A stretch of DNA of 42,019 nt from Deltaproteobacteria bacterium (GTDB lineage: Bacteria; Desulfobacterota; Desulfarculia; JACQYL01): NCBI GenBank assembly GCA_016208165.1, contig JACQYL010000019.1:1-42019 (forward strand), written 5' to 3'. The translations under genes and the position numbers were made by a program. Below are positions 5,521-22,814 of the stretch, one piece after another (positions within the stretch are counted from its first letter, which is position 1; every line of letters begins with the position of its first letter). The notes under the pieces are model-generated. The model was not told where the DNA came from. It saw only the letters and a program-made list of their open reading frames with translations, and searched no databases.

Positions 5521-6969
5521 TCATGGACGAGGGTCGGATTCCGCGTCGGCTCGATGGGAATTCATCATGCTCGGCTTGGCCAGGATCTGCATGGCGCTGT
5601 CGAGTTTGAAGTTGCCGTTGACCACCACGAGTTCTCCCTCTTCGAGCCCCTCGCGGACCAGATAATAGTCCTTCGCCTTGCAGCCCAGAACCACTTCGCG
5701 TCCCTCGAAGGTGATGTTTTCTCCGGGCACGGCCACGTACACAATGGCTCTTTCCCCGGTGATCAACGGCGCCGAAGCAGGAATCACCAAGGGAGCCTCA
5801 TCGTCTCCCGTGAAATCGGTTCTGACCTTGCCGTCCGCCGTCAACTCCGCGTATGCTTTGGCCCGCACGAGCATATTCGGCCTCAATTTTCGTTCCTCGT
5901 CCGGATACAGGGCGCCGATTTTGAACGTCCGTTTATTCGGATCGAAGGTCGGATCGATGAATACGATCTTGCCTGTAAACGTGACACCGGGATACGCGTC
6001 CGTCTCGAATTCCACCTTTTGCTCCCTGTGCAGCCACGGAAAATCCGATTCGTAAGCGTCCAGTCTCGCCCACACATATCGGGGGTCTCCGATGGTAAAA
6101 ATGGGAGTCCCCGTGTTCACAAAGGCGCCTTCATATGCGTTCTGCTCGATGACCACCCCGGCTTTTGTCGCGTATACGCCGGCGATCCCCGTAGGCTCTC
6201 CCAGTTTCATCAGCTCGTCGATATCCGCTTTAGGCAATCCGAGTATATGTAGCTTGTGCCGGATAGCGGCCAGTTTATCCATGGCTTCCTTGTATTCGGG
6301 GGAATCGGCCTTCGCGCCTTCTCCCGTGCTTCTGGATTGAGTCAGGGCTTTCCTGGCGGTGTACGGCGTCTTGGCCTGAAACGCAAGAAAACTGGGAATC
6401 GTCTTCATGACGCTCACCAGTTCCTGCTGGGTAAAATACAGATCCGACGAGTAGAGATCGAAAAGGCGGTCGTGCCAGCGCACCGTCTGCCCGGCCCGTT
6501 TCACGTAAACGCGATCTATGACGCCGGGCATGAAAGCCGATACGTAGCTCATGTGCGCGGGATCATATTCGATCTGTCCGAACATCCGGACCTCCGCCGA
6601 AACAAACTTCCGTTCGACAGGCTGAATACGCACTTCAGCCCGTCTAATAGCCTCCTCTCCCAACACCAGCTTCGCCTTATCCTGCTCCTCCTTGTCCCCC
6701 AGCAGCATAGGGATCAACTTCATACCGCACACCGGGCAATTCCCGGGCTCATTCGCGGGTGGCAAACAGCTCATCGAGCATACGTACACCGTCCTCACTC
6801 CTGGTGTTTCTTCGGCTGTGGTCTCCGAAAGCGGCCGGTTATCCTGTTTCGCCTGAACCCCGGAAGTCACATTCCTGAACGCGTAACCCAATACGAACGC
6901 CAGTATCACGACCCCAACCATCACCAGACCTCGGTTTTTGAGGCTGATGTTCCGGATGGGATATTTCAT
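5521..6969 (-). CDS. cusB: CusB-type periplasmic adaptor with metal-binding domain
   Basis: Membrane-fusion subunit of a CusCBA-like efflux system, linking CusA to an outer-membrane channel and feeding it metal. The 482-residue protein has an N-terminal membrane anchor (about 14-31), then a heavy-metal-binding domain with YVCSMSC (C64, C68) and NCPVCGMKLIPM (C78, C81), followed by the hairpin/lipoyl/beta-barrel adaptor region (PGVIDRVYVKRAGQTV, later GTPIFTIGDPRYVWARLDAY). The start is the ATG at 6969, preceded by GGAGG at 9 nt; an ATG 36 bp upstream lacks such a site. Gene order cusB-cusA is as expected, with a strong hairpin between them. The 276-bp gap upstream could hold a separate promoter. 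Confidence 0.92.
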   Translation of the reverse strand: MKYPIRNISLKNRGLVMVGVVILAFVLGYAFRNVTSGVQAKQDNRPLSETTAEETPGVRTVYVCSMSCLPPANEPGNCPVCGMKLIPMLLGDKEEQDKAKLVLGEEAIRRAEVRIQPVERKFVSAEVRMFGQIEYDPAHMSYVSAFMPGVIDRVYVKRAGQTVRWHDRLFDLYSSDLYFTQQELVSVMKTIPSFLAFQAKTPYTARKALTQSRSTGEGAKADSPEYKEAMDKLAAIRHKLHILGLPKADIDELMKLGEPTGIAGVYATKAGVVIEQNAYEGAFVNTGTPIFTIGDPRYVWARLDAYESDFPWLHREQKVEFETDAYPGVTFTGKIVFIDPTFDPNKRTFKIGALYPDEERKLRPNMLVRAKAYAELTADGKVRTDFTGDDEAPLVIPASAPLITGERAIVYVAVPGENITFEGREVVLGCKAKDYYLVREGLEEGELVVVNGNFKLDSAMQILAKPSMMNSHRADAESDPRP

Positions 6970-7245
6970 GTTTGTCTGCCTCCATTGTTCGGGACATGGT
7001 CCCAATCTAATGATTCCTTAGGCGGAAGCGCCTTTTGTTTCGTCCCAGTTACCCGCGGGCGGATATTTCAAAAGGCCGCATATATGAAAAAATTCAAGCA
7101 GATCGGCGAACGCACGTCAAGGCGTTCTGAATCACCCTCCGTCGAACGAGGGTTCGAATGCTACATGCGTGAAGGCCCTGATCCTGGTCACATCCATTCA
7201 ATTCCAACATCCCAGAGATCGCAAAAAAGCATCCCCGACCTTCGA

Positions 7246-8244
7246 TTATGACAGGAGTATGAAGTCCGACATAATCATTGGGTAAACGGAGATACCGGTA
7301 AATAGAACGAAACCCGCCATGGCGATAATACACAACCGCCTCTGAAGCGCGGGAATACTATCCTGGAGGGAAGGCGTTTGCCGATGCCGGCCAATTACCC
7401 GAACGGCCGTACCCGTTATCCCGGATCCCAAGAGGAAAAGATAAAGCGGGTAGCCGATATATCCATACTCTTTCTGAAGAACACAAAACGGGCAGTGATG
7501 AGTCGGAAGCTCGTAGTAATAAACAGAAATGAAAGAAATCAGTGAAACGATGCCCACCACGAACAGGAGAGAGCTGAGATAGGAGAAAAGCTTCCAACCG
7601 TTCCCGGTAATGAGGAAATGGAGCCCGGTCCTCGTGGTCACAACCACCGTGAGAAAGAAAAAAGCCATGGCCGCCGGCGGATACATACTCGTCAAAGTAC
7701 CGGTAATTGTGGGTGCGTCTTCGCTGAATAACGACCCGCAGCACGAGGTGATGACATCCGGCTCCAAGTCCAGGAAATAGGAAACCTCGAGAGCGCTGTC
7801 GGCCAGCAGAGCGGCAGTCACAAAGAACAGGAATTTATACTTCAATCGGATGAGGGGATAGTCGTAGCCCCGATGGTCCGTGTAGTTCAGTATTAACCAG
7901 ATGCCGCTCAGAAATACGCTCAGAATTTTGACCACGAGCGCGAGATATCCGAAGCTGTTGGCGTTCAGAGAACCCGCCGCGCACATGGCGCCTATGAACA
8001 GAGGATGAATACGATCCGCGGTATAGACAAACAGAAACAACAAAACCACCTGAAATCCCATCACGTAGGCCAGCACGGTCGAGACCAGATAGGTTTTGTG
8101 CTCGAGGGCCAGTTGGAGTTCGCTTCCGCTTTTCAGATTCCAGTGCTTCAGGATGCGAGCTCCGATCATGGACGAATACAGCGAAATGAAGGAAGTGAGC
8201 AGGGAGCCTACAATCAGCGCAATAATGGCGGGGTTCAGGATCAA
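7246..8244 (-). CDS. Polytopic membrane protein with DsbB-like CPFC motif
   Basis: A 332-residue inner-membrane protein with about 8 hydrophobic segments. Three cysteine features stand out: GAMCAAGSLNAN (C88), ITSCCGSLF (C168-C169) and HHCPFCVLQKEYGYIGYP (C251, C254). The last resembles the CxxC of DsbB/VKOR-type quinone-linked thiol oxidoreductases, so a thiol-redox role in the periplasm is a reasonable inference, but I cannot assign it to a named family. It starts at TTG (8244), 4 bp after the ATPase stop, with GGGAG upstream, so it is likely cotranslated with the ABC genes. Alongside NosL-type copper proteins it may keep copper-binding cysteines in the right state. Confidence 0.8.
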   Translation of the reverse strand: MILNPAIIALIVGSLLTSFISLYSSMIGARILKHWNLKSGSELQLALEHKTYLVSTVLAYVMGFQVVLLFLFVYTADRIHPLFIGAMCAAGSLNANSFGYLALVVKILSVFLSGIWLILNYTDHRGYDYPLIRLKYKFLFFVTAALLADSALEVSYFLDLEPDVITSCCGSLFSEDAPTITGTLTSMYPPAAMAFFFLTVVVTTRTGLHFLITGNGWKLFSYLSSLLFVVGIVSLISFISVYYYELPTHHCPFCVLQKEYGYIGYPLYLFLLGSGITGTAVRVIGRHRQTPSLQDSIPALQRRLCIIAMAGFVLFTGISVYPMIMSDFILLS

Positions 8245-8248
8245 TGGG

Positions 8249-8926
8249 TCAACGCTCCCGGCTTATCATTCCATCCCTGATATCGATCACGCGGTGAACG
8301 ATACTCGAACCAAACACCAGAGGATCGTGACTGGCCATGAGCACGGTTCTTCCCTTACTGCAAAGTCCTGAAATGATGGACATAAACTCTTCTCCAAGAG
8401 CGGTATCCAGATGAGCCGTCGGTTCGTCGGCAATGATGACCTCGGGATCGTTGATCAGCGCTCTGGCGATGGCCACTCGCTGCTTTTCCCCCCCCGAAAG
8501 ATGCTCCGTCGGCTCATTCGCCTTTGAGGCTATTTTCAACTGTTCCAGGAGCCCTTCGGCCTTCTTCTTAATCAACCCGTGTCTTGCGCCGATGGGATAG
8601 GCGGGGATCATTACGTTTTCAACGACGGATATGCCTCGGATCAGGTTGAACATCTGGAATATGAAGCCGAATGTCTTTCTCCGGATCTCGGACAGGAATC
8701 GCTCCGGCAGACTGGTCACTTCCGTTCCCGATACATGGACCCTGCCCGATGTAGGCCGGGTCATGCAGCCGATGATGCTCAGAAGCGTGGTCTTCCCCGA
8801 GCCGCTGGGACCTCGAATGACGGTGATCTCATTCGTGTTCAGGGCCAGCGTGACTCCCCGAAGCGCTCTGAATTCGTTCCGCCGCCCGGCGCTGTATGTC
8901 TTGCTGACTTCCTGCAGTTCGATCAT
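8249..8926 (-). CDS. ABC transporter ATPase, LolD/MacB type
   Basis: A 225-residue cytoplasmic ATPase. It shows Walker A GPSGSGKTTLL, Q-loop FIFQMFNL, signature LSGGEKQRVAIARAL, Walker B VIIADEPTAHLD and an H-loop MASHDP. Length and sequence type match LolD/MacB-like proteins that drive FtsX-fold permeases by mechanotransmission rather than classical import or export. It starts 2 bp after the permease stop and is followed 4 bp later by the CPFC membrane protein, so the three form a tight unit. NosF is the ATPase usually paired with NosL in nitrous-oxide reductase loci; this protein is the MacB/LolD type. Confidence 0.95.
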   Translation of the reverse strand: MIELQEVSKTYSAGRRNEFRALRGVTLALNTNEITVIRGPSGSGKTTLLSIIGCMTRPTSGRVHVSGTEVTSLPERFLSEIRRKTFGFIFQMFNLIRGISVVENVMIPAYPIGARHGLIKKKAEGLLEQLKIASKANEPTEHLSGGEKQRVAIARALINDPEVIIADEPTAHLDTALGEEFMSIISGLCSKGRTVLMASHDPLVFGSSIVHRVIDIRDGMISRER

Positions 8927-8928
8927 AT

Positions 8929-10065
8929 TTATATCTGTTTCATCACACTATCGGGTTCGGTCACCGACACCCGCCACGTGGGAATGACGGTAATCACCGT
9001 GTACGGGAGCACCGTCAGGCAGAACAATATGGCAAGCTGATACGCATCGATGGAAGGCGCGAGCGTGAATTCGGGATAGAGAACGGACCAGCCCTTGAAT
9101 GCATGAGAGAAAAGCGGAGCCGATAGAAGGAACACATGCATATAGGCCACAATGACGCCGATGAAAAAGGCGGTGAGCGAAATGACCACGCCTTCCCAGA
9201 ACTTCACGGCCAACACATCTCCCGTATCCCAGCCCAGGGCCTTCAGGATGCCGATTTCCTTCTTCTCTTCGTCGCTGAGCCCGGTGGCCTTATCCCATGC
9301 AAAAATAAAGAAGGCCATGCCCGCGCCTATGAGGAGAATGACGGCGTACCCGCTTCGCCAGTCAAACAAGGAGGCGTAGGTACGTTCGATCTCATCCCTG
9401 AGAATGGGGCGGGTATCGGGAAAAAGAGTGACGATTTTCTCTGCGATTACTTCATACTCGGCCGGATTTCGAATGATTACCGCCAGGTCGGTGAACAAGC
9501 CTTCACCCATCCCGAACAGGCGCCGAAACGCGTTTTCCGACATGAGGACCAGATCGCTCGTGACCAACTCGCTGGATGCGTCAAACGATTCCTTTACGTT
9601 CATGACCATCGTTTCCCCGTTGAAGGTCCTGAAGTAGAGCCCCGGATCTCGGCGAGTTTCCCAACTCCGGAGCACCCCGTTTCCCACAACGATATCCTGG
9701 TCTCCATAGCTGAATTCTTCGGGAACCATGATGGTGTAGTTCGCCCGATTCGCGGGATGATAGTAGTATCCCCACAACCTGCCGTGCACGGAACGGACCC
9801 CTCGAATCTCACCTATACCGTCCGCGTAGCCCAGAGGGATCAGATCGTGCCTGCCGGCCACCATCCGCTGAACAATCATCTCCGGAGCGTCTTTCAACAG
9901 TGACAACGCTTCCTTTCGGAGTGCGTTGGCCAGGAACACGACCGAGGACAGGAGAAACACGATCAGCGCGTACACCAGCGCCAGGGAGGCGTTCTTCCAC
10001 TTCCTCCTCAAGAGTGAGGACAGCGTGAATTCCAAAAAGTTTCTCTGCCTCTCAAGCCATCGCAT
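8929..10065 (-). CDS. FtsX/MacB-fold ABC permease
   Basis: A 378-residue membrane protein with the four-helix layout of the FtsX/LolC/MacB family: one N-terminal TM (about 26-48), a periplasmic domain of about 200 residues, then three TMs (about 242-262, 293-318, 345-365). The motif EEKKEIGILKALGWDTGDVLAVKFWEG between TM2 and TM3 is the family's coupling region. It partners the ATPase 2 bp downstream. Cargo is unknown; from the neighbours it may act on copper-protein assembly or on a lipoprotein in the periplasm. Confidence 0.92.
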   Translation of the reverse strand: MRWLERQRNFLEFTLSSLLRRKWKNASLALVYALIVFLLSSVVFLANALRKEALSLLKDAPEMIVQRMVAGRHDLIPLGYADGIGEIRGVRSVHGRLWGYYYHPANRANYTIMVPEEFSYGDQDIVVGNGVLRSWETRRDPGLYFRTFNGETMVMNVKESFDASSELVTSDLVLMSENAFRRLFGMGEGLFTDLAVIIRNPAEYEVIAEKIVTLFPDTRPILRDEIERTYASLFDWRSGYAVILLIGAGMAFFIFAWDKATGLSDEEKKEIGILKALGWDTGDVLAVKFWEGVVISLTAFFIGVIVAYMHVFLLSAPLFSHAFKGWSVLYPEFTLAPSIDAYQLAILFCLTVLPYTVITVIPTWRVSVTEPDSVMKQI

Positions 10066-10169
10066 TGCATTGTTCTTTCATAGTTCGGTGGACTTGACCG
10101 TCACCGGGGAAGCCGCTCTCCAAGTCCCGCTGCACAGGATGCGATTGAAAATCGCTTCCGATCATCCGT

Positions 10170-10541
10170 TCACTTCGGTGGGGGTCCTGCAACCGTGCCC
10201 AACGATGGGCCTGGGAGGGCTTCCGGTTCCGTACCGCTTCCCGTGTAGGCCCGGATCAAGCGAAACGGCGGTTGTACGATGGAGCCCGAGGGGAAATGCT
10301 CGAGCGACATGGGGTGGTCCTGAAACGGGGCATGCGTGTCCGCCTGGGACAGGTGCCGCGTATACCTGGCTTCGGTAAACAGGCACAGATCCGTGATCTG
10401 AAGTTCTCCCACCAATCGTCGTTCTCTTGCAATCCTCTCTTGATGGGCGTCCCCGACGATCCTTGGGTAAACCAAGGCGAGAAACGCGAGCACCAGCCCG
10501 CACCCAAGAATGAAGATTACATACAGGTCCGACTTCTTCAT
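10170..10541 (-). CDS. Small single-TM protein of the NosL/ABC unit
   Basis: A 123-residue protein with one N-terminal hydrophobic segment (YVIFILGCGLVLAFLALVYP) and a hydrophilic, presumably periplasmic remainder that ends in a proline/glycine-rich tail. No family was recognised. It begins 15 bp after the NosL-like gene and ends 104 bp before the permease gene, so it is probably part of the same transcript. The ribosome-binding site is weak. Overlapping open frames exist here, but this one has the TM segment and the operon spacing. Confidence 0.65.
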   Translation of the reverse strand: MKKSDLYVIFILGCGLVLAFLALVYPRIVGDAHQERIARERRLVGELQITDLCLFTEARYTRHLSQADTHAPFQDHPMSLEHFPSGSIVQPPFRLIRAYTGSGTEPEALPGPSLGTVAGPPPK

Positions 10542-10556
10542 TGGACTCGACTGAGT

Positions 10557-11051
10557 TCATTCATCTAATTTTCGGACCATTTCCGGCGTCACTTTGTCGA
10601 ACGTCAGAACGCGGTTGCCCCCATGGTCTTTCATGAATTCGTCCGCCTCTTCCTTGCTTTTCTGAGGAATCAATTCCCGCCCCATGGGTCCGTACACCGT
10701 GCTCCCCATCACATAGTAGGCCTTGAAACCATCGATAAGCCGAAGATCGTAGTATTCGGTTACCCAGATCGAAGCGACGTCGCTCCGGCTCTTTTTGGAA
10801 TCGTATTTATTGATATTGAAATAATATTTGAACAGGTCCTTGGCTCCGTCAAAGTACACCCGCGTACCGTCTTTGTGGACGATCTGAGCCGTCCAGTCCG
10901 GATACTTGGCCACAAACATACCGCAGACGGGACATTTGTCTTTAGCGGACGGCTTGGACGGCGCGAGGTCGGTCGGACTTTGACCTGAAGCTGCCGCTGA
11001 AAGACACAGGCACACAAGGAACAGCATGCAACGAACACTGAGTGCTTTCAT
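10557..11051 (-). CDS. NosL-like copper-binding protein (CPVCGM)
   Basis: A 164-residue exported protein of the NosL family, copper(I) chaperones best known for delivering copper to nitrous-oxide reductase. It has an N-terminal signal sequence (about 1-23) and the metal motif KCPVCGMFV (C40, C43, M45), followed by the conserved YFDGAKDLFKYY and LIDGFKAYYVMGS segments. Its ATG overlaps the TGA of the preceding NosL-like gene (ATGA), and GGAGG lies 7 nt upstream. With no nosZ in the window, the local multicopper-oxidase-like proteins are the obvious candidate recipients (inference). Confidence 0.9.
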   Translation of the reverse strand: MKALSVRCMLFLVCLCLSAAASGQSPTDLAPSKPSAKDKCPVCGMFVAKYPDWTAQIVHKDGTRVYFDGAKDLFKYYFNINKYDSKKSRSDVASIWVTEYYDLRLIDGFKAYYVMGSTVYGPMGRELIPQKSKEEADEFMKDHGGNRVLTFDKVTPEMVRKLDE

Positions 11052-11551
11052 GGGGTACGCCTCCCTTCCTTGTTGAGCTTCTGGAGGACGGTATCTTTCA
11101 TATCTTCAAAAGCCGCTTTGATCGCTTCGTCAAACGCGACCACTCGTCCTCCGGTCTGTTCCGCGTACAAACGAGCTTCGATTTCTCTGCCGAATGCGCT
11201 CTTGTCTCGTCCGGTTGTGGGATTTTTCTTGTCTTCTGAAATCACCCAATAGGCGGTTTCCGCATCGATGATTTCTTTGGTGTAGTAATCGCCCACGGCA
11301 ATTCCTTTGATCTGCCGATCAAATCGCATGGACAGATAGATGGCCAGACAATGGAGAGAGCGAGCGCCCATGGACTTGCCGTCCGTGAACTCAATGTAAA
11401 TCGGGGTCTGAAAGAGGTCCTGGAACGGACACTTCGGGAACTTGAATTTGAAATCCTGCGACCGTACCGGGTCCGGAACGGCGACGGGCCACATTCCGAG
11501 CATAAGAAATACGATCACAATCCGTTTAACGGTCGGGGGCACTATTGTCAC
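11048..11551 (-). CDS. NosL-like protein lacking the CxxCGM motif
   Basis: A 167-residue exported protein with a hydrophobic N-terminus (about 10-25). The fold pattern follows the two neighbouring NosL-like proteins: YIEFTDGKSMGARSLHC, GIAVGDYYTKEIIDAETAYWV and a C-terminal FDEAIKAAFEDM block that closely resembles the end of the protein at 11751-12269. The copper motif is altered to FPKCPFQDLF, with only C41 and C68 left. It appears to start at GTG (11551) with a weak ribosome-binding site, and it overlaps the next NosL-like gene by 4 bp. It may be a partner or regulatory paralog rather than a chaperone itself. Confidence 0.8.
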   Translation of the reverse strand: MTIVPPTVKRIVIVFLMLGMWPVAVPDPVRSQDFKFKFPKCPFQDLFQTPIYIEFTDGKSMGARSLHCLAIYLSMRFDRQIKGIAVGDYYTKEIIDAETAYWVISEDKKNPTTGRDKSAFGREIEARLYAEQTGGRVVAFDEAIKAAFEDMKDTVLQKLNKEGRRTP

Positions 11552-11750: not shown

Positions 11751-12269
11751 CTACTTACCTTGTTTCATCCTCATCATAGCACGCTTCTTGCGGATCATCT
11801 GGGTGTCCTGGTACATGTCTTCAAACGCGGCTTTGACGGCCTCGTCAAACGTGGCCGGAGTTCCGCTGAACTCCTGAATGAACCCGTCGGCAGCCGATTT
11901 CTCCTCGAACGCCCATTTGGCCCTGGTAGTCATGACGCCCATCTTACTTCCGCCTAACACCCAGTAGGCCTTCTCGGCGTTAATCGGATTTTTGGTCGAG
12001 TAATCCCCGACCGTGATGGTAACGGGAGCTTTGTCGATATTCAAAGCCAGATCGATCGCGCCGCAGTGAATCGAACAGACTTCCGTTTTGGAGCCTCCAT
12101 CGTATTCAATGACCATCCATGTATGACCGAACTTGGATTTCATCATTCCGCAATAGTGACACGACTCCCCTTTCGCCATGGTGTCATCGGCCATCGCCCA
12201 CCCTCCGAATACGAAACCGAAGGATGCCAAGAAAATCACCATCAAAAACATGAAACAAGAACGCCTCAT
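11751..12269 (-). CDS. NosL-like copper-binding protein (CHYCGM)
   Basis: A 172-residue exported NosL-like protein. The signal sequence (about 1-27, ending AMA) is followed by ESCHYCGMMKSKFGHTW (C37, C40, M42) and by VCSIHCGAIDLAL (C65, C69), giving a second cysteine pair not seen in the CPVCGM paralog. The start is the ATG at 12269 behind AAGGAGG; a longer frame upstream lacks a signal-like N-terminus. It sits between the twin-CX3C protein and the other two NosL-like genes. A periplasmic copper-carrier role is inferred from the family. Confidence 0.88.
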   Translation of the reverse strand: MRRSCFMFLMVIFLASFGFVFGGWAMADDTMAKGESCHYCGMMKSKFGHTWMVIEYDGGSKTEVCSIHCGAIDLALNIDKAPVTITVGDYSTKNPINAEKAYWVLGGSKMGVMTTRAKWAFEEKSAADGFIQEFSGTPATFDEAVKAAFEDMYQDTQMIRKKRAMMRMKQGK

Positions 12270-12390
12270 CCATCTCCCTCCTTTGTGATTTGAGTACGAC
12301 TTTGGCCTCTGCTCCCTTTGGATATTCACGTCCGGCAAGTCAAAGCCTCCATAGGAAAGTCAGAGCACGATTACAGCGTCTTTGCCTGCG

Positions 12391-12705
12391 TTAGTTGTTT
12401 GCAGGCGAATTCCGCATGAGCTTATTGTACTCGATTTCTTTCCTATAATTGAATGCTTTTTCGCACTTTTCTTCGCATGACGCATCGGAGCCGCAATGTT
12501 CCAGACAGACGTTATAATCTTTCTGAAGGAAGCTCTGGATGTCCTCCCATGCCTGTTTCTGCTCTTGGGGGACCGCGAAGGCCTGTGATTCCGCCGCACG
12601 CATACCCTTATCCTTTGTCTCGGCAAGAGCTCCGGGCTGACGGCAAACAAACACCAAAGTCAACAGCGTCAATAAACCCCAGAAAAAAACAGAATTCCTT
12701 TGCAT
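12391..12705 (-). CDS. Small exported twin-CX3C protein
   Basis: A 104-residue protein with a signal sequence (about 7-28, GALA cleavage-like end) and a helical domain holding C67-x3-C71-x5-C77-x3-C81 (NVCLEHCGSDASCEEKC). Paired CX3C motifs on helices are the hallmark of disulfide-bonded helical hairpins, as in eukaryotic CHCH copper chaperones, although those use CX9C spacing; here the loop is only five residues. No bacterial family was recognised. The start is set at the second ATG (12705), which is 6 nt from AAGGA; an in-frame ATG 6 bp upstream is too close to it. Position among copper genes suggests a metal or redox role (inference). Confidence 0.75.
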   Translation of the reverse strand: MQRNSVFFWGLLTLLTLVFVCRQPGALAETKDKGMRAAESQAFAVPQEQKQAWEDIQSFLQKDYNVCLEHCGSDASCEEKCEKAFNYRKEIEYNKLMRNSPANN

Positions 12706-12755
12706 ATACATTCCTTAGTATAGAAGTAATATTGGAACGACTTCAAAAGACCGTC

Positions 12756-13199
12756 CTACTCCACTTTCAGATGCTCCGCCCGGAAGTCGCCGATGACTAC
12801 GGTCATGGTATCGCCTCTTCTTACCAGTCCCCCCGCGTTGGAAAACAGAATCACGTACACGCGGTTGATTATCGGTTTCACGGCGGAGCCGCGAAGAGGA
12901 CCAAGCTTGGTGACCGGGATGCTGTGGATAGCTCCCGTCCGCTCATGAACGGCATGAGCTTTGACCGGCCTTTTGGTGATCTTGGACGCTTTGTCCGGAT
13001 CCACAATGCGGTAACGGAAATCCAGCATCTGGTCCGACGCGGTGAGCCTCAGGCTTACGAATTCAATGCCCCATTCGTCCGCCCAGGAGGTCGGTGTAGC
13101 CTCAGGGACCTTCTCCGGAGTTGGTACTGGAGGGGTCGTTTGGCAGCCGGCCGTCCCAAACATGAAAACCAGAATGGAGATTAGAAGGATGGTTCGCAT
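12756..13199 (-). CDS. Predicted lipoprotein of unknown function
   Basis: A 147-residue protein with a lipoprotein-like N-terminus ending GTAGC (C19), then a proline-rich linker (about 22-37) and a compact domain with FRYRIVDPDKASKI and VYVILFSNAGGLVRRGDTMTVVIGDF. GGAGG lies 9 nt before the ATG. I do not recognise the domain; the pattern suggests an all-beta fold. It lies between the MCO-like genes and the copper-carrier genes and is probably an envelope accessory factor. Confidence 0.7.
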   Translation of the reverse strand: MRTILLISILVFMFGTAGCQTTPPVPTPEKVPEATPTSWADEWGIEFVSLRLTASDQMLDFRYRIVDPDKASKITKRPVKAHAVHERTGAIHSIPVTKLGPLRGSAVKPIINRVYVILFSNAGGLVRRGDTMTVVIGDFRAEHLKVE

Positions 13200-13484: not shown

Positions 13485-14732
13485 CTAGGGGCAGACGGTA
13501 GGTATGAACGTACCGAAATTATTCGCGAATACAATAACGTCCGCATCGTTCACCAATGTGTCGCCGTTCAAGTCCGCGCTGGGCAAAGCGGCATTGTAGG
13601 CTGCAAAAAACGCTACCAGGTCTTCGCCGTCCGCATCTCCGTCTCCGTCGAAGTCCGCCAGGTCGTTCACGAGTCCGGTCGGATCCTCGACGCAAATGGT
13701 CAGGTAACCCATCATTCCGCCCGATAGGGAACTCCCGTCGTTGGTGAGAAACAATCTTCGATCAAAGACGGGGATATCGCCGGTCACGTCGGAGGTGGTC
13801 TGTAGAATCGCGTCCATGGTCTTGCCCGGCGCCAGCGTCAGCAGGTACGTCTGTAACGGATAATTTAATGGGATGCCATCTTCGGCCACCTGTGACATGT
13901 ACATCCCGTAAATCAGCGGTATGTGGGTCTCGAGACCCGCATTAAGAAACCGCAGGAGCGCCCGGCTTCCCGCCACCAGCGAATCGAGGATCAGGGGCGC
14001 GACGTCCGTAAACGCTTCCCCATTGATCAGAAAATACGTGGGATGGTAGTCGATGGTGCTCGTCAGCGTTTTTCCGGGGCCGTAGGTGTCCGCGGCCACA
14101 TGGCCATGGATCACCGGATCCACTTCGTGGAAAAGCATGATCGTCTCATCATCATATGCCGTGGCCGGCGCACCGTAAGCATTGAGGGGCCCGGCGTCTT
14201 TCTTCAATGCGCCGTAGAGGCCCATCTGCCCCTGGACGGCCATATTCGTACCGCTTCCATAGAGGTACGTTCCCATCTTGACTCCACTCCAGGTATAGGT
14301 CACCGTGGTCGTCGGGGCCGTTTCCTTATCGAAGGAACGCACCCGTCCCGTCACGTTTCCCGCCGGTCTGGATCCGGTCGACAGAACGGCGTCCGTAAGA
14401 CCGTCCGTCCACACGGGGACCGCGGGGTCCAAAGGGGACTTCATCTGACCGCGAATCAGCAGAGAGGTTGGAACCGGCAATTCGTTGGTCAGGTTAATGA
14501 TCAGTGTATCGTCACCGGGAGGTACTACCAGTACCGGACCCGGAACGGTCGCCGTACCGCCGTCCAGGGCGTAGGCCCACATCGTGACCGCCGGACCGCC
14601 TTCCGGCATATTCATGATCATCACTTTGGCGGTCAGGTTATAGGTAGCGGCGGAGGATATCCCGGGTATGCAAACCACCAGGGCAATGACCAGAAGAATC
14701 CGCCCGAATGAAATGGTTCGAGTGCTGCGCAT
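13485..14732 (-). CDS. MCO-like cupredoxin protein, ligand-poor, with dockerin (C)
   Basis: A 415-residue secreted protein: signal peptide (about 1-28), two cupredoxin-like domains, then a C-terminal dockerin-like pair of calcium loops (DFDGDGDADGEDL about 360-372 and DLNGDTLVNDADV about 387-399). It keeps multicopper-oxidase framework residues (MGTYLYGSGTNMAVQGQMG, EVDPVIHGH, RRLFLTNDG) but lacks the expected HxH and HCH ligands: where active enzymes have Y-H-S/C-H it has YGSGTN, and LLIRGQ stands where HWHG is expected. It is probably a structural or binding subunit, not an oxidase on its own. The ATG at 14732 follows AAGGAGG. It directly follows protein B. Confidence 0.8.
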   Translation of the reverse strand: MRSTRTISFGRILLVIALVVCIPGISSAATYNLTAKVMIMNMPEGGPAVTMWAYALDGGTATVPGPVLVVPPGDDTLIINLTNELPVPTSLLIRGQMKSPLDPAVPVWTDGLTDAVLSTGSRPAGNVTGRVRSFDKETAPTTTVTYTWSGVKMGTYLYGSGTNMAVQGQMGLYGALKKDAGPLNAYGAPATAYDDETIMLFHEVDPVIHGHVAADTYGPGKTLTSTIDYHPTYFLINGEAFTDVAPLILDSLVAGSRALLRFLNAGLETHIPLIYGMYMSQVAEDGIPLNYPLQTYLLTLAPGKTMDAILQTTSDVTGDIPVFDRRLFLTNDGSSLSGGMMGYLTICVEDPTGLVNDLADFDGDGDADGEDLVAFFAAYNAALPSADLNGDTLVNDADVIVFANNFGTFIPTVCP

Positions 14733-14750
14733 GTTCGCTGCCTCCTTCAT

Positions 14751-16094
14751 TTAATTGACCGGCATCTCCATGGCCACGTTCGGGGGTTCTACAATCATGA
14801 AGGTGACATAACCTCCCGGCCAAATGTCGTTGTTCGTCAGCTCTTTTTCCGTGTGAGAATGCCACATATAAAAGAAACCGCCATTGGCGTTCAAAGCCGG
14901 GTGACTGGGGGGCAAGACTCCCTCGGCTCCCATAAACGGGCTCCCGTGATAGAACTGCCCGAACGAGAGATCGTCCCGGGGAGGAATAATGACGGGAAAC
15001 GGTTTCCCATGGTCCGTGAGGGCCAGACGCGATCCCGCGGCCCAAGGCCGGATCGTCGTACCCTCCTGGCCTCTGAGCAGGCCGAAGGCGTTTCCGCCCA
15101 GGTATCTCATTTTTACGACTTCTCTAATCGGGTCCAGGTCCGGTGTGGCAAATGCCGCCCTCCAGATGATGGCCCTGAAATAGCGATATCTCTGCGGGAA
15201 CAGTTCCTTGCCGCTCCACGTCCAAATGAGATCCGCCGTCTGTCCCGGTTCGATGGTGAATGTCGTAGCCTTCCACCCCAAATCCGGCCCGTTTCCAGGC
15301 GCGCTTTCCAGCATCCTTCCGTTGATGGCGATCACGGTAAAGTCGTTCCCGTGATAGTGCATGGGGTGTCCGTCCCTGCCTGCGTTGATAAGTCTAATCA
15401 GGAACTTGTCTCCTGCACGCATCTTCGGCTGGCAATTGTACGGCTGATTCGGCAGCCACGGCACCCCGGCGTCCGTCATCACGTCCGGGAAGTTGCGTCC
15501 GTTGATGAACCACATCACCTCAAAATAGTCGTTGGTATTGACCGAATCGTATTGGCCGGCCTCGACGTAGTTGTGAATAACCGGGTCCATTTCCGTGAGG
15601 AAGTACAGCTCCTCGTGACCGTAGAAACTTCCCTCGTGCCCATACGCGGTGTAGGTGTCCGGGTCGGTGAAATCATATCCAAGGGGCCTCACGATGATGG
15701 CGCCCGCGAGACCCATTTCCACCATGAAGTCCGGCCTCGTGCCGCAGTGGTACTGATAGCTGCCGGGATGATCCACCGTAAAGGTGTAGGTAACCACGCT
15801 GACTCCGCCCGGTTCGGCTTCCCGGGTCAAAACACCCTGAACACCTCCGGTGGCCGTTACTTTGTGCCCGGGAAAAACCAGGGACACGTTTCCGGCAGGG
15901 GCCGGCAGATTGTTTCTGAGGTTAATCGTGACGGTTTGGATACTTGCGGTTTCAGCAACGAAACTAAAGACCGGATTGGGAGAAGTCCCCGTGATACCCT
16001 CGATCTGCGCCTGCGCCTGGAACGCCCAGAAGCAAAGCAGCAGCGTTGCCGCACAGAGAGCCATCGATCCTCTCCTGCTTATGAATCTGTACAT
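14751..16094 (-). CDS. MCO-like protein with trinuclear-type His motifs, no T1 Cys (B)
   Basis: A 447-residue secreted protein with a signal peptide (about 11-30) and at least two cupredoxin domains. The C-terminal domain carries HPMHYHGNDF (H243, H246, H248) and WHSHTEKELTNNDIWPGG (H412, H414), which match the third and fourth copper motifs of multicopper oxidases, except that the type-1 cysteine of HCH is serine (HSH). The N-terminal domain has YHCGTRPDFMVEMGLAG (H116, C117). The HSHTEKE..NND..PGG pattern is, from memory, that of large MofA/OmpB-like metal oxidases. GGGAGGAGG precedes the ATG, 15 bp after gene A. Alone it lacks a full ligand set; with protein A it could be complete. Confidence 0.85.
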   Translation of the reverse strand: MYRFISRRGSMALCAATLLLCFWAFQAQAQIEGITGTSPNPVFSFVAETASIQTVTINLRNNLPAPAGNVSLVFPGHKVTATGGVQGVLTREAEPGGVSVVTYTFTVDHPGSYQYHCGTRPDFMVEMGLAGAIIVRPLGYDFTDPDTYTAYGHEGSFYGHEELYFLTEMDPVIHNYVEAGQYDSVNTNDYFEVMWFINGRNFPDVMTDAGVPWLPNQPYNCQPKMRAGDKFLIRLINAGRDGHPMHYHGNDFTVIAINGRMLESAPGNGPDLGWKATTFTIEPGQTADLIWTWSGKELFPQRYRYFRAIIWRAAFATPDLDPIREVVKMRYLGGNAFGLLRGQEGTTIRPWAAGSRLALTDHGKPFPVIIPPRDDLSFGQFYHGSPFMGAEGVLPPSHPALNANGGFFYMWHSHTEKELTNNDIWPGGYVTFMIVEPPNVAMEMPVN

Positions 16095-16109: not shown

Positions 16110-17339
16110 TCAAATTAACGGGCTGATTACGATTTCCGTGATCAGTCCACCGCGTTCCTCTTGATTGTTGCACATAAAATTCAGATTGGTCGTGTGGAGG
16201 AAATAGGTTCCCGGCTCGACCCCGGCGGTATCCACAATCACGTCGTAGGCCTGCCCCCCACCCACGTTCAGCACCTGCACCTCGTAGGACGTATCGATAC
16301 CCGTTTCTCCTCGCAGAAGTTCGGCGCCCCGGCCCACGATTTTCATGGGAACGCCCAAGGTCGTGGTTATGGCCCAGATATCCGTGGTGGAGACGTTGCT
16401 CACTCGAAGGAGGATCTTGTCGCCCGCGGCGGCCTGAATCAGACTGTGGTACCGCTGGGAGATGAACCCCTCTTTGTTCACAATGGCGTTGGGATCGGCC
16501 GGCATGGCGTCGGGATCGAAAGTATTAATGTTATACGGGTATCCCCTGCCGTTGATCATGGGATAGTTGTCTTTCATGGCCGCGAAGGGCAAGGGCTGGA
16601 TCGTTTCACTGGCGTCGTGGAAGTTGGAATCGAACCCCGTTAGCTGGACGGGATAGCCCACGTCGTAGTAGGTGGAGCCGTCTCCGTCGTTGTATGCATA
16701 GGTGTACCCCGTGTGATGCACGAACCCGCCCGCGAGAACGGTTCCATTGGGAAGGTCGTCCTGCGCGGGGGTCACCCACAGCGGGCCGATCATGCCCATT
16801 TGCATGTGCTCGCTGGCTTCAACGTGGCAGTGATAGAAGTAGTTGCCCGGCTGGGCCGCGAAATAGGCGTACGTAAAACTGGCTCCCATCACAGCCGTTG
16901 GCGAGGGTTCGGGCAATCCGTCGAAGATGGGCGCCGCATGAGGAAACCCGTGCCAGTGAATCGAATGTGGATCGAACAGATCCGTGCGAACCGCCATCCC
17001 CACGTTGGTCATGGTGAGGTATAGCTCGTGACCTTCCTTGACAACGATGAGCGGCGCCGGACACCACGACTTGAGCGTATAGTTGGCCACCACCTCCGTC
17101 TCGAGGGTGGACGGATCCACCAACCCAAAACCCAACATGTACTGGGAATACCCGTCCGCCATCCGCGCGAAACCGTCGGCGCCCGCCAGGTGAATGCACT
17201 GAATATTGGGATCGTCCGAAACGCCGTCCATGTCCACATCTCCGGGACATTGGACGAAAGCGCCCTGAGCGCTCCATGGCCCCAACAGACCCAACAACAG
17301 CGGCACGATCAACAGCGGGTAAATGATGCGCCTATTCAT
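16110..17339 (-). CDS. MCO-like protein with complete type-1 copper motif (A)
   Basis: A 409-residue secreted protein: signal peptide (about 1-27), a calcium-loop-like CPGDVDMDGVSDD (31-43), then two cupredoxin domains. The first has HSIHWHGF (H125, H128, H130) and YHCHVEASEHMQMGM (H170, C171, H172, H178, with M181/M183), giving a T1 copper site and half of a trinuclear cluster. The second domain ends FMCNNQEERGGLITEI and has lost HCH. The HxxHxH plus HCHVEASEHMQMGM combination resembles the T1-bearing domain of MofA/MnxG-type large oxidases (recollection of the family, not searched). AAGGAG precedes the ATG. It is the first of three adjacent cupredoxin genes. Confidence 0.88.
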   Translation of the reverse strand: MNRRIIYPLLIVPLLLGLLGPWSAQGAFVQCPGDVDMDGVSDDPNIQCIHLAGADGFARMADGYSQYMLGFGLVDPSTLETEVVANYTLKSWCPAPLIVVKEGHELYLTMTNVGMAVRTDLFDPHSIHWHGFPHAAPIFDGLPEPSPTAVMGASFTYAYFAAQPGNYFYHCHVEASEHMQMGMIGPLWVTPAQDDLPNGTVLAGGFVHHTGYTYAYNDGDGSTYYDVGYPVQLTGFDSNFHDASETIQPLPFAAMKDNYPMINGRGYPYNINTFDPDAMPADPNAIVNKEGFISQRYHSLIQAAAGDKILLRVSNVSTTDIWAITTTLGVPMKIVGRGAELLRGETGIDTSYEVQVLNVGGGQAYDVIVDTAGVEPGTYFLHTTNLNFMCNNQEERGGLITEIVISPLI

Positions 17340-17420
17340 TAGTTGCTCCTTTCCGTCCTTTGGGGCTCCGCCTCGGCATCCCGCAGCGGAGCCAATGCAT
17401 GCCGGCTATGATCCTGCTTT

Positions 17421-20400
17421 CTAATAGAATTCGTCGGCTCCGATATCGATGGTCCCGTTCTGCCTGCCCTGGCCGTCATAATCCTCAGGGACCGCAAAGG
17501 GCAGAGAAGCGGCATTCCCGCTGTTGTGCGGGAGTGAACCCGAGGTAATATGATAGTCACCGGTCACATAGAGCGGCTGGAAGGCGATATCGATGAAGTT
17601 GCCGCCTTCGTCCAACGCCGCCGCCGTATCAAACACCCTGTCCGGCAAATTGGGAGTCGCGACACTGTCGTTGAAATACGCACTAACGAAGGGATCGTCC
17701 CCGTCTCCGGGCGCGCCCGCACCGGGGTCTCCATCCACATTGGAAGCATGATAGCCCGTGGTGTCCGTCATGAAACAGTACCTCGGGTCGAGCATGGAGC
17801 CTGCCGGCGCGCCGAGCACGTCGAGGTCATTCCACGGAGGCGTCGTGAGCACCAACTCGCCGTTGGGGGCCATGCTCGCCGGATCCAGTTGCCATCTGAA
17901 CGACCGGTTTTTCCAGAGGATGTTGTTCAGCAGCAACGGATTCGAAAACGCGGCATACTCGGGCCCACTGGCGCCGCCTCCCACGGCCGTAGCGATGATC
18001 GAGGCCAATCCCGCGCTGTGCACCCTGGACAAAATACCCGCCGGTTGAGGCGTGGAGCTGGCCACCCCGTTCAAATCGGGCGGATTGAGCACCGTACCTT
18101 CCGTGGCGGTACTGTCATTGTAGGTGATCTGGTTATTAAAGAGCCTGGCGCCCGGGGAGTCCTGAAACGACACGGCCCCGGCCTTGCCCGTTACATTGTT
18201 CACGATCATGTTGTTATAGATATTCACCCGGTGCCAGGCGGAGGGCGTGACCGGCGAAGCCTGCACGTCCTGCCCGTTCACGTAGTACAGCCGGATTCCT
18301 CCGCCGTCCCCGGCGCCCGCGTAATTCCCCTGGATCAGATTGGCGTACACGTCCACGGAACCCGACCCCGGCGTCAGTTCTCCAGCAGCCGGCGAACTCC
18401 CGCCGATGGATATACCACCGCCGGCTTGTTCCCCGATGGTCTGGTGGAACTGGTGATTGAACACCACCTGGTTATTGGCGATCACGCCGCCCTCGCTCAG
18501 GCCTTCGTGAAGAATCCCGCCGGCTGATCCGGCGGAGAAATTAGCGCAGACGAAACAATCGGAAATGACGTAGTTGTCGGTTCCCGTATAGATTGCGATT
18601 CCTCCCCCGCCCCCTTCGTTGCCCGCCATTCCGGCGTTGAGGGCCCCGTTCTTGAATATCTCGTTATAGCGAACGGAAAGCCCGTCGTTTTGGGAGTCCA
18701 CCGGGGCCGCGAACGCAAAAGCGGTCACGGGATGCCCGGATCGAACGCCGCCTCCGTAGGTGCCCCAGTTGCCGTACAGACGGTTGTTACTGATCTCGAT
18801 GCCGGGCGCATAGCTGGCTACAAATATGGCGCCCCCTCGATCTCCCCCGGTAATCCCCAGACCGTCGATCAGGGCCGCGTTGGCGCCGCCGAATTCATTG
18901 GGTTGGGACAGGCTGATATCCGGCCCCAGCACCGTAATGCCGGCGCCCTGTTCCGTGGGAAAGAGTCCGGTGTTCGGGAACGGCGAGAAAGGAGTGTCCT
19001 GCCCCGGCAGTAGATCGATATCTCCCGAGGCTACCAGCGCGTCGATCTTATCGCGCCAAAGCTGGAGTTTGTTGGCCGGCGTGTTAAAGGCATTGATGAT
19101 GGCGCCTCGAGCGCCCGATCCCTGGAGAAGGACCGGCTTGTACATGATCACCTTTTCAAAATAAGCCCCCTGATGAATCAGTATGAGATCTCCGGGCGCC
19201 GCCGCGTCTATGGCGTCCTGGATGGGGGTGGCGTCCACGGCCGTTGGAGGCAGCACGTGACGAACCGTACCCGTGGCGCCCACGTGCACGGTGACCCCGA
19301 TCCTGGTGGAAACTCCGTTGTCGCCGCGGGTCACCACGAGCTGACCCGTTGAAACTCCGGCGCCGGGAACCTGGGCGGTAATCTGACTGTTTGTCCAGTC
19401 ACCCGGATTCACGGTAAGAGGCGCACCGTTCAGCGTGACCGTACCTTCCGTATCGCTGAATCCGAAGTCGCGATCGATCATCTGGGGTGGGGTCCCATCC
19501 CCGTCGTACAAGGGGTTCGGCACGCTTTCCGTGCCCCGGCTCGTGAAGATGAGTGCTCCGCCGCCGGCAGGTACGTAGGCCCCGCCAAAACCGTCGGACT
19601 GCACGTCCGGACCGCTGACGTAATCGATGACCGGCGTACCGTCGGGCGGCGCACAATCCACCGGAAACTCGTTCCTGGCCGCCCAGGCCGACGTGGGCAA
19701 CACCGGCGTATCAAGATACGTGGTCGTTCCCGGAGCAAACTGGAAGTCATAACAGGACTGCGTAAACTCCATACGGTAAAAGGGATCCACGACCAGTTCG
19801 AACGTGCCCGGATTCATGGGGTCTTCCTGGATTATCGGTCCCGCGTCGTTGATGCACACCGAGTAGATGGCCGGACTCATGCCGCTCTGCCAGGGCAGAT
19901 TCTGAGAATAGGTGGAAGGAACAAGCCCATTGTATTTGGAGAACTGATCCCCATAGATGCGCGCCACTTCCCGGCCCGTATGGTCCCGCATGGACACCGG
20001 GACGAAGGGTATGGACTTCTTTTCTCCGAAGCTCGGATTGATGGGGTCGCCTTCGCCTCCGAGATCGTTGTTGATGTTACCCACGAAATGGGCCGAGATC
20101 GGCACCGTGGTCTTCAGGTAAATATCCGCCGCCGCGTTGAGCGTGGACTTGACGGTGACCTGTTTGCGGTTGCACATTTTCACGGTCTGGCCCGCCAGGG
20201 CGCACGGCACGCCGGGAAACAGCTCGAGCTCCGCGTCCACCGGCACCGTATAGTCGTCCCCCGCACACGGAGGTGGAATGGCTCCGGGGACCGGCGCGTA
20301 TTCATCGCAGAAGTCCACGTTTTTGGACTCGGGCATCAGGTGCGAATAACCCGGAGGAGCCCAATCGACGGCGACAATATACGTACCCAGCTCGATCCCG

Positions 20401-22814
20401 CCGAATGCGTACCCTCCGTCAAAGACACCCGGCCGGACCTGGTTCCAACTCCGTAACCCGTCGAAACAATCGCCCGGATTAAGGCCGGGGGGCAAGTAGG
20501 GATCGCCCTCCAGCCCAGGGCAGTTCTCCGGCAGCGAGGCGTTCCAGTTGTCCGTGTGGGCGATCTGAACGGCGTCGCCCAGGTCGAACACGCCGTTCGT
20601 GTTCCAGTCTTTATCTTCGAGCCCCATGGCGCCGCCCGTTTCCCATCCGAAGGGGGCGTTGTCCACGTCCGCCAGGGTTACGCCGCCGCTCAGGTCGAGG
20701 TCGTCGATCTGTCCGTCGGGCGCGTCGTAAACGCCGTTACCGTTCGAGTCTATATCCTCGAGGCCTTTGGCGCCGCCCGTGGCCCATCCGTAAGGGGGAT
20801 TATCCACGTCGCCGTCTCGGTACAAGTTAACCTGTACGTCCGGAATGCCCGGTTCCCAAGGCTCGGCCGCGGCCAGTCGCGGATCGTCCTCCGCTCGGGT
20901 CGTAGCGTAAAACACAATTCCCGATATGCCGCCGTTGTTTCCGCCGGTATAGGCTTGTTTGCCCCACAGCAATACGTTGGTCTGGCCTGCATAGACCTGG
21001 AAAGCCTGGGTCAGCACCACACCCTCTTCCGTGCGGTCCATGCCGCCGCCGTCGAAAATCTGGGTCTGGGGAGTCACACGGCCGTATATGGGATGGGCCT
21101 GATTCGCCGTATCCACCGGTCCCCCCTCGTCCACCACCACTCGGAATCCCGTGGCGTTCAGGCGCGCGAAGTCGACTTCCGCCACCTGCCAGTGAAAAAA
21201 CGGAAAGATTTCATCGAAATTGGCGAAACCCGAAGAGTCCGTGGCGGCCGCCTGATAGATGGTGCCGTCACGAAATCGGAGATTTATGTTTTGTCCCGGG
21301 ATCGGGGTTTCGCCCGGATCCGGAACGCCGTTGTTGTTGTCGTCGTAGTACACATAGTTCCAGAGGTGGCTGAACCAGTCCGATACGGAAATCGTTCCCA
21401 GGTCCACGTCGCCGCCGCCGTCGGGCACCGTGACCGTGAGGAAACTGATGATCAGATCGAGGGCTTCGTCCCACATGACGAGCTGATACGATCCCGGAGG
21501 AACGCCCTCGATGGAGAATTCGGCCGTGTCCTGATTATCCGCAGGCTGGGCGTACACGCATTTACCCGAAGAGTCGTTCAGGCCCACCCAGGCGCCCGGG
21601 AAGGGCGCCCCGGGCGCGGTGGCCTGAAACAAGGGGGGCCGGTCCAGGTGCATATTGGCGATCCGGCCAGTGATCGTGGAGCCTCCGGGAGGACATACGG
21701 TGCCGTAAGCCGCCGTCACCACATTCAGGTCCAGACCGTCCACGTCTCCATCGCCGTCCGTGTCCGCGGGAAACACACCGCCGGTCTTCCCGAAATCCTG
21801 GGAGAACACATCGAGGTCCGCACCGTCGATCACACCGCTGCTCTCTCCGGTGGAGCTCACATCCGCGGGGCATGGGCCGAATCGGCTGAGGACGGTATCG
21901 TCGTACGTGGGACGAACAAATCCCATGAATATATGGGTGCTCGGTGTGCCGAACTCGACCAGAAGAGGCCCTCCGCCGACCGGTACCCACGCGTCGATGG
22001 TGGGGGTTCCCTCGATCGTGGTGGTTTGCTGCCAGTCCGTGCCTCCGGGAGGCACGCATCGTATCCCGTATTTCCCCGGCCCCATGTTCTTGATGAGGGC
22101 AAAACCGTTCGCGTCGGTGTATACGCTGCCGTCACCCATCTGGAGCACGGAGCCGTCGGGATTGTAGGTGGTGCCGATGGGGTTGCCGAAGGCGTCCGAT
22201 ATGGTCTGGCCGGCAGTGGCTCCGTATCTCCCACCCGCATCCTCGACGTACACCTTAAAACCCTGCAGGCCGCTCTCGGCCGGAAGGTTGGGGGAGTTGT
22301 TCACCGGGTGGTTGTCCTCAAAGACAAAGATGGAAAATTGGGCGGGCACTAACGCTTCGTTGGTGTAGAGGACTACTTCGATTCCCCAGGCGCCCGGTGT
22401 GCCGGTGTCCACCGTATCCGACCGGACCGCCGCTCCACCGATGGTGTAGCCCGCGACTTTGGACAGCACGGTGAGGGCATAGCGCTTGGTGTCGTCGATG
22501 ACGTACGTGGCCGTGCCCGTGTCCGTTTCTCCTTCCGCCACCACCGGGACATAGCTGGTGTGGAAATTCAAGGCAATCGATTCGGTATCGGGAGGCGGGC
22601 TTGTGGGATCGAAATGGCGCATGGTGTTTTCTTCCAGCAGCCAGCGGAAGCTGTCGATGGCGACGCCATTCTCATCCTTTACGGTGATTTCCAGAGTTAC
22701 CGGAGCTGCATACGCGGCGGAGCATAGGATGCATGCGCACGATACTAGTAGAATAGCCATGCGCGCACACCTGCTCACAAAACGGGAGCGGCGTTTCGGG
22801 GTCCCTGACTTCAT
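17421..22814 (-). CDS. Giant secreted dockerin/SdrD-like/beta-helix protein
   Basis: A 1797-residue exported protein, first gene of the leftward copper locus. The signal sequence (about 19-36, SAAYA) is followed by beta-rich regions; a dockerin-like calcium-loop pair (about 315-378, ..DTDGDGDVDGLDLNVV..); SdrD B-like modules (YYDDNNNGVPDPGETPIPG, about 490); two related acidic loops (GWATGGAKGLEDIDSNGNG and GWETGGAMGLEDKDWNTNG, about 680-740); an IPT/TIG-like domain (about 1065-1175); and a right-handed beta-helix (about 1180-1790) beginning IQDAIDAAAPGDLILIHQG and ending DIGADEFY. AAGGAG lies 7 nt before the ATG at 22814. It looks like a surface scaffold or adhesin. NosD is also a beta-helix protein, but size and modules differ, so I do not call it NosD. 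Confidence 0.85.
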   Translation of the reverse strand: MKSGTPKRRSRFVSRCARMAILLVSCACILCSAAYAAPVTLEITVKDENGVAIDSFRWLLEENTMRHFDPTSPPPDTESIALNFHTSYVPVVAEGETDTGTATYVIDDTKRYALTVLSKVAGYTIGGAAVRSDTVDTGTPGAWGIEVVLYTNEALVPAQFSIFVFEDNHPVNNSPNLPAESGLQGFKVYVEDAGGRYGATAGQTISDAFGNPIGTTYNPDGSVLQMGDGSVYTDANGFALIKNMGPGKYGIRCVPPGGTDWQQTTTIEGTPTIDAWVPVGGGPLLVEFGTPSTHIFMGFVRPTYDDTVLSRFGPCPADVSSTGESSGVIDGADLDVFSQDFGKTGGVFPADTDGDGDVDGLDLNVVTAAYGTVCPPGGSTITGRIANMHLDRPPLFQATAPGAPFPGAWVGLNDSSGKCVYAQPADNQDTAEFSIEGVPPGSYQLVMWDEALDLIISFLTVTVPDGGGDVDLGTISVSDWFSHLWNYVYYDDNNNGVPDPGETPIPGQNINLRFRDGTIYQAAATDSSGFANFDEIFPFFHWQVAEVDFARLNATGFRVVVDEGGPVDTANQAHPIYGRVTPQTQIFDGGGMDRTEEGVVLTQAFQVYAGQTNVLLWGKQAYTGGNNGGISGIVFYATTRAEDDPRLAAAEPWEPGIPDVQVNLYRDGDVDNPPYGWATGGAKGLEDIDSNGNGVYDAPDGQIDDLDLSGGVTLADVDNAPFGWETGGAMGLEDKDWNTNGVFDLGDAVQIAHTDNWNASLPENCPGLEGDPYLPPGLNPGDCFDGLRSWNQVRPGVFDGGYAFGGIELGTYIVAVDWAPPGYSHLMPESKNVDFCDEYAPVPGAIPPPCAGDDYTVPVDAELELFPGVPCALAGQTVKMCNRKQVTVKSTLNAAADIYLKTTVPISAHFVGNINNDLGGEGDPINPSFGEKKSIPFVPVSMRDHTGREVARIYGDQFSKYNGLVPSTYSQNLPWQSGMSPAIYSVCINDAGPIIQEDPMNPGTFELVVDPFYRMEFTQSCYDFQFAPGTTTYLDTPVLPTSAWAARNEFPVDCAPPDGTPVIDYVSGPDVQSDGFGGAYVPAGGGALIFTSRGTESVPNPLYDGDGTPPQMIDRDFGFSDTEGTVTLNGAPLTVNPGDWTNSQITAQVPGAGVSTGQLVVTRGDNGVSTRIGVTVHVGATGTVRHVLPPTAVDATPIQDAIDAAAPGDLILIHQGAYFEKVIMYKPVLLQGSGARGAIINAFNTPANKLQLWRDKIDALVASGDIDLLPGQDTPFSPFPNTGLFPTEQGAGITVLGPDISLSQPNEFGGANAALIDGLGITGGDRGGAIFVASYAPGIEISNNRLYGNWGTYGGGVRSGHPVTAFAFAAPVDSQNDGLSVRYNEIFKNGALNAGMAGNEGGGGGIAIYTGTDNYVISDCFVCANFSAGSAGGILHEGLSEGGVIANNQVVFNHQFHQTIGEQAGGGISIGGSSPAAGELTPGSGSVDVYANLIQGNYAGAGDGGGIRLYYVNGQDVQASPVTPSAWHRVNIYNNMIVNNVTGKAGAVSFQDSPGARLFNNQITYNDSTATEGTVLNPPDLNGVASSTPQPAGILSRVHSAGLASIIATAVGGGASGPEYAAFSNPLLLNNILWKNRSFRWQLDPASMAPNGELVLTTPPWNDLDVLGAPAGSMLDPRYCFMTDTTGYHASNVDGDPGAGAPGDGDDPFVSAYFNDSVATPNLPDRVFDTAAALDEGGNFIDIAFQPLYVTGDYHITSGSLPHNSGNAASLPFAVPEDYDGQGRQNGTIDIGADEFY

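Follow-up and report, generated by a model that had tools for sequence, protein, structure and literature searches.

What do Cu(I) chaperones of the NosL type serve in a genome devoid of nosZ, where three of them lie in one gene run with an ABC unit and oxidase-like proteins? The window, i.e., the whole 42,019-nucleotide stretch analysed here, corresponds to contig C19 in an assembly of 5.7 Mb. Searches with clade II and clade III models gave no nosZ match above the cut-off anywhere in the genome, the locus included, so that the absence from the locus claimed by an earlier, sequence-only reading extends genome-wide. To our knowledge, the delivery of copper to enzymes beyond the inner membrane has been worked out for a handful of systems only, namely the NosDFYL, Sco/PCuAC, and CopA routes. 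The analysis described below suggests that a conserved gene set at this locus probably supplies copper to extracytoplasmic enzymes.

Every gene from 22859 to 1304 is oriented leftward (minus strand), and the gaps are mostly short: 81 bp between the giant protein and MCOa, 15 bp between MCOa and MCOb, 0 bp between MCOb and MCOc, 2 bp between the FtsX and ABC genes, and 4 bp between the ABC and CPFC genes, while NosL2 and NosL1 overlap by 4 bp. Promoter and terminator scans of the run remained near chance level. The open reading frames, Pfam, and NCBIfam recovered all the genes that the sequence-only reading had named in this closely packed run, although its list missed a small gene (10170–10541) and did not recognize that NosL2 is degenerate and MCOc ligand-free. 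The run begins with a giant secreted protein (17421–22859, probable start 22814) containing SdrD_B, dockerin-like repeats, and a C-terminal β-helix, followed by MCOa (16110–17339), MCOb (14751–16094), and MCOc (13485–14750), in all three of which Pfam detects Cu-oxidase domains. A lipoprotein-like protein (12756–13199), whose family adjoins the module in five other loci, and a small secreted protein (12391–12711) with a twin-CX3C pattern in its sequence come next; no relative of the latter was established in the neighbour loci. They precede the NosL genes and the core module. The run ends with a CusB-like membrane-fusion protein bearing a heavy-metal-binding domain (HMBD) (5521–7005; HlyD_D23, 169 bits) and a CusA-like RND heavy-metal efflux pump (1304–5257; ACR_tran, 574 bits), which lies beyond the range 5521–22814 considered earlier. 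Both components of CusBA are thus present, while neither CusC nor CusF was recognized in the run. Pfam gave no match for the CPFC protein, the product of the small gene, the twin-CX3C protein, or the lipoprotein.

All three NosL proteins pass the Pfam PF05573 cut-off of 24 bits. NosL1 (10557–11051; 111.5 bits) carries a CPVCGM motif, and its residues C40, C43, M45, and M123 are invariant in 88 of 88 sequences. NosL3 (11751–12338; 43.7 bits) carries CHYCGM together with a second motif, CSIHC, and both Cys pairs of this CxxCGM plus CSxHC arrangement are conserved in 98–100% of 59 sequences. The Cu(I) motif CXXCXM/CXM is found in both proteins; CXXCXM is the copper motif of clade II NosL (Bennett et al., PMC6530538). 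NosL2 (11048–11551; 31.5 bits), which matches the profile at positions 44–126 only, is a degenerate NosL without the CxxCxM copper motif. The product of the small gene is a membrane-anchored protein of 123 residues with conserved C53, H63, and H82. The ABC unit comprises an FtsX-type permease (8929–10065; FtsX, 36.3 bits against a cut-off of 25.5; lolCE, 24 bits) and a cognate ATPase with an ABC_tran domain (8249–8926). The ATPase best resembles LolD, MacB, and FtsE (179–194 bits), and the permease is LolCE-like; accordingly, no homologs of NosF or NosY were found at the locus. In its LolD/FtsE-like ATPase, FtsX permease, and large predicted periplasmic domain, the unit resembles the type VII (mechanotransmitting) ABC systems MacB, LolCDE, and FtsEX. 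It differs from them in that its partners are copper chaperones, and its scores fall far below the curated LolD, FtsE, and MacB cut-offs, none of which is reached. In the FtsX protein, no Cys/Met pattern of the kind expected for copper handling is conserved, which counts against a copper module.

To define the conserved unit, 120 loci encoding the CPFC protein were read, and profiles of the window genes were run on six-frame translations. Among the 93 non-redundant CPFC copies with at least 4.5 kb of upstream sequence, the ABC ATPase lies nearby in 89, FtsX in 86, the small protein in 84, and NosL in 77; before the removal of duplicates, NosL was absent nearby in 17 of 97 copies. All five parts occur together in 74 of the 93 copies, and 68 keep the exact order NosL, small protein, FtsX, ABC, CPFC. 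Within the phylum, CPFC is present in 44 of 297 genomes, and NosL is found in 39 of these 44, as compared with 13 of the 253 genomes without CPFC (Fisher p = 5e-32). The conserved order and this co-occurrence indicate that the module is a unit rather than an accident of one genome, and the earlier proposal that the genes belong together holds in dozens of genomes. CPFC also occurs in at least 559 stretches of a species-genome collection, the best 80 of which belong to Desulfobacterota, Nitrospirota, Methylococcaceae, and a few others; a plasmid search for CPFC gave no match. The combination of NosL, FtsX/LolD, and CPFC is therefore widely conserved, and it is previously undescribed: in the open literature covered, neither NosL with FtsX nor a NosL-like chaperone with an ABC transporter is described. 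Anaerobes and metal cyclers account for the hundreds of genomes that carry the module, at whose centre lies an unannotated membrane protein. Its conserved partners also bear on an explanation in which a MacB/Lol-type ABC exports a peptide, lipoprotein, or metallophore and the copper genes are merely neighbours. The ATPase and permease are indeed closest to MacB, LolD, LolCE, and FtsE, but what is conserved with them is NosL and Cys/His-bearing proteins, and neither a precursor peptide nor an outer-membrane channel is conserved with the module. Such an export function is very improbable.

The CPFC protein (7246–8244) has eight transmembrane segments and no relative in Pfam, NCBIfam, or the PDB sequences. 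Its AF2 model (pLDDT 90, pTM 0.89) contains eight long helices. A Foldseek search against the PDB gave a best E-value of 0.4, and VIA matches were at the level of a helix bundle; the lack of relatives does not in itself establish a new fold. C88, C168, and C169 are invariant, while C251 and H249 are conserved at 99% and 96%, respectively. The three Cys loops all have a net negative charge, and three of the four loops on the opposite face are positive, with one near neutral; from these charges, the Cys face is predicted to be periplasmic. Four near-invariant Cys residues in predicted periplasmic loops would also suit a thiol-redox module, in which CPFC acts as a DsbB/VKOR/CcdA-like oxidoreductase that keeps the Cys residues of NosL or the copper site reduced (or oxidizes them), leaving NosL as the sole copper carrier. 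The presence of Sco in 15 loci, TlpA in about 20, and DsbD among the module neighbours points in the same direction, as does the single CPFC member out of 47 that grazes the DsbB model (E = 0.0014). The other members match neither VKOR nor DsbB nor DsbD, however, and Foldseek gave no PDB fold relative below an E-value of 0.4. Furthermore, conservation of the second Cys in the CPFC motif reaches only 88% overall, with Asp in its place in one clade (4 of 25), which weakens the interpretation as a CXXC redox motif; the combination of a profile match and a conserved CXXC that characterizes DsbB/VKOR was not found. A redox role is unlikely. The Cys pattern would fit a metal site better than a CXXC oxidoreductase, and the Sco, TlpA, and DsbD neighbours fit copper-site assembly.

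The client genes vary between loci while the core stays. The sequence-only reading regarded the gene set as one that occurs without nosZ; this applies to most genomes, but nosZ adjoins the module in G050 and G230, the two of 35 CPFC-containing genomes in which it exceeds the cut-off, an arrangement that this reading had itself named as grounds for refutation. The order in G050 is Rieske protein, cytochrome b, cytochrome c, nosZ, nosB, nosD, nosF, nosL, nosY, and tlpA, directly followed by NosL3, NosL1, a further NosL, the small protein, FtsX, ABC, and CPFC. The layout in G230 closely matches it, and both genomes hold a complete clade II nos cluster. Canonical NosDFYL is also encoded in these nos loci, and the task of the module there is not obvious. 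Since nosZ stands beside the module in these genomes, its absence was dropped as a defining trait, and a role in copper maturation becomes more likely. The module thereby bears on N2O reduction besides surface oxidases. Clade III L-NosZ, a conceivable hidden client, was rejected because it exceeds the cut-off only in G061 and G096 and on contigs other than those of the module. These lactonase-type enzymes (G061:C4:61442-62938 and G096:C220:345-1841), from two genomes of one family, coexist with a divergent CPFC module.

Upstream of the module, L091 encodes proteins with CuA motifs (CSVTCGSLHPFM and CTTMCGKCHCYM), and L130 has similar proteins; these CuA-type cupredoxins contain CxxxCxxxHxxM motifs. 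Of the 34 MCO loci in genomes with CPFC, 9 are no more than 17 kb from it, as compared with 0.34 expected (P = 1e-10). The association is looser genome-wide, with an MCO in about half of the CPFC-containing genomes and PF07732 unmatched in about half. The link to MCO pairs that had been proposed from the window is supported, often with CusBA alongside, but the module also occurs without any MCO, which makes the MCO one client among several. The factor common to the clients is the assembly of extracytoplasmic copper sites. At about 15 loci, a protein of ~1200 residues with Cu-oxidase motifs and FG-GAP repeats was observed (e.g., L113:15756-19373), repeatedly beside CusBA and the module.

The same neighbourhoods allow copper detoxification to be weighed, in which NosL, the ABC unit, CPFC, and CusBA would sequester and expel copper and the MCO would oxidize Cu(I) in the manner of CueO/CopA. 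An MCO with CusBA represents classic resistance parts, the window's run ends with an HMBD-bearing CusB and an RND pump as in CusBA efflux systems, and 37 of the 93 copies have RND/CusB genes no more than 10 kb from CPFC. The remaining 56 copies lack them nearby, so that CusBA is an optional partner in the relatives, and the run itself differs from CusBA efflux systems in having no recognizable CusC or CusF. The module moreover occurs in nos and CuA loci, split MCOs exist in genomes without CPFC, and we know of no MacB/Lol-type ABC that acts as a copper exporter. Detoxification thus appears improbable, even slightly more so than the redox role.

The oxidase-like proteins of the window differ from conventional MCOs in the distribution of their copper ligands. 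The nearest solved structures of MCOa are the type C two-domain MCOs 3g5w and 2zwn, which have two cupredoxin domains per chain, with the type 1 site in domain 1 and an HxH motif in domain 2. Domain 1 of MCOa aligns to domain 1 of these enzymes and retains HxxHWHG (as HSIHWHG) and YHCH...H...M (within YHCHVEASEHMQMGM), while its second domain aligns to their domain 2 and has lost the histidines. Conversely, MCOb has a blank first domain and retains the domain-2 motifs HPMHYHG and WHSHTEKELTNND (WHSH) when aligned to these enzymes. MCOc, with a dockerin-like tail, keeps no copper ligand in either cupredoxin domain. Hence, the type 1 site, HxH, and domain-2 HxH do not occur together in one chain; unlike in the type C enzymes, the ligands are spread over two chains, each half-blank, with a fully blank third paralog. 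The same division between a and b chains is found in L039, L121, and L148, where homologs of the giant protein adjoin them, and in 18 further tandem pairs of the phylum, including genomes without CPFC, giving about 20 in total. Judged from sequence alignment, two different proteins thus seem to share one oxidase active site.

The trinuclear centre of known type C enzymes is formed at a subunit interface of the trimer, where domain 1 of one chain meets domain 2 of its neighbour. A complementary loss in duplicated chains can consequently leave a working a–b interface, and we infer from the ligand pattern that MCOa and MCOb form a heteromer. The single-chain AF2 model of MCOb, built from 5 sequences, has a pLDDT of 35. 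No heteromeric two-domain MCO is described in the part of the journal literature that was covered, and the split MCO offers a simple test case for the division of an active site between paralogs. Tandem pairs whose b chain carries a Tat-like signal (RREFIKYG) were observed in L158–L160, L166–L170, and L181–L182, with about five such pairs in G142. No signal peptide is visible at the start of their a chains, a pattern known from hitchhiker export, which suggests that the two chains of this subfamily are exported as a preformed pair.

Considering these findings together, we assign a probability of about 0.55 to the interpretation that the gene set is an envelope copper-maturation module, similar to NosDFYL in function but non-homologous, whose client in the window is a heteromeric surface MCO. 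NosL1 and NosL3 would bind Cu(I) through CxxCxM, and the MacB/Lol-type ABC unit of FtsX and the LolD-like ATPase would convert cytoplasmic ATP hydrolysis into movement in the periplasm. The predicted periplasmic face of CPFC, with four Cys and one or two His residues, may serve as a copper relay or handover platform, with the small anchored Cys/His protein as a helper. The co-encoded secreted cuproprotein that the module would then metallate is an MCO in many relatives, N2O reductase in two, and a CuA-type protein likewise in two. For the likely surface oxidase of the window, MCOa would provide the type 1 copper and half of the trinuclear ligands, MCOb the other half, and MCOc a ligand-free partner, with the giant protein as a putative surface scaffold and CusBA clearing surplus copper. 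Points against this interpretation are the copies with no NosL nearby, the CPFC-containing genomes without a PF07732 match, the presence of NosDFYL in the nos loci, and the missing FtsX/ABC genes at L039. The likeness to NosDFYL consists of a NosL-type Cu(I) chaperone with CXXCXM, an ABC unit, and an envelope cuproprotein client, possibly within the same cluster. In contrast, the module has an FtsX/LolD-type ABC in place of NosF/NosY, no NosD (the giant protein matches it at just 19 bits against a cut-off of 300), and the additional CPFC and small anchored proteins; it mostly occurs without nosZ, and in G050 and G230 it coexists with NosDFY rather than replacing it. A broader proposal is tentative, with odds somewhat short of even: the module would be a general ATP-driven copper-insertion machine with membrane parts unrelated to NosDFY and a new eight-transmembrane copper-handling family, and in several phyla it would supply N2O reductases, CuA proteins, and MCOs. 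Heteromeric MCOs whose duplicated chains have lost complementary active-site halves would form one class of client, perhaps with one active centre per surface a/b/c assembly.

The full combination of giant protein, MCO pair, lipoprotein, and module, usually with CusBA, recurs in the Nitrospirota loci L121 and L148, the latter without CusBA on the stretch examined, and parts of it are seen in L039, L076, and L082. L039 (G020) contains the MCO trio, the giant protein, and CPFC, with no FtsX/ABC at the locus. The window's genome holds a second CPFC module (contig C15, L034) beside a conventional three-domain MCO and CusBA; of its three MCO loci, two thus have a module copy alongside. L148 (VEOY01000025.1), where the giant protein, MCOa, and MCOb adjoin the module, derives from the Nitrospirota genome MnB_6/Mn-Nitrospirae-1, a record name that suggests a Mn-related sample. 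Two novel MCOs have been reported as shared among Manganitrophaceae (PMC9040806), and the L148 pair could be these proteins. In the Methylococcaceae loci L126, L139, and L147, the module is followed by NosL, a TlpA-like protein, and a long NosL-bearing protein; DsbD or its N-terminal domain is also present in L126 and L147. Elsewhere in the window, positions 28443–32176 encode the large subunit of a NiFe hydrogenase and a small subunit with a C-terminal bacterial Ig (Big_6) domain, possibly an extracellular or surface-bound form. A PKD/REJ/Big_9 multi-domain surface protein (35542–37641) adjoins a sigma54 response regulator (33938–35347), and a second such regulator is located at 39573–41069.
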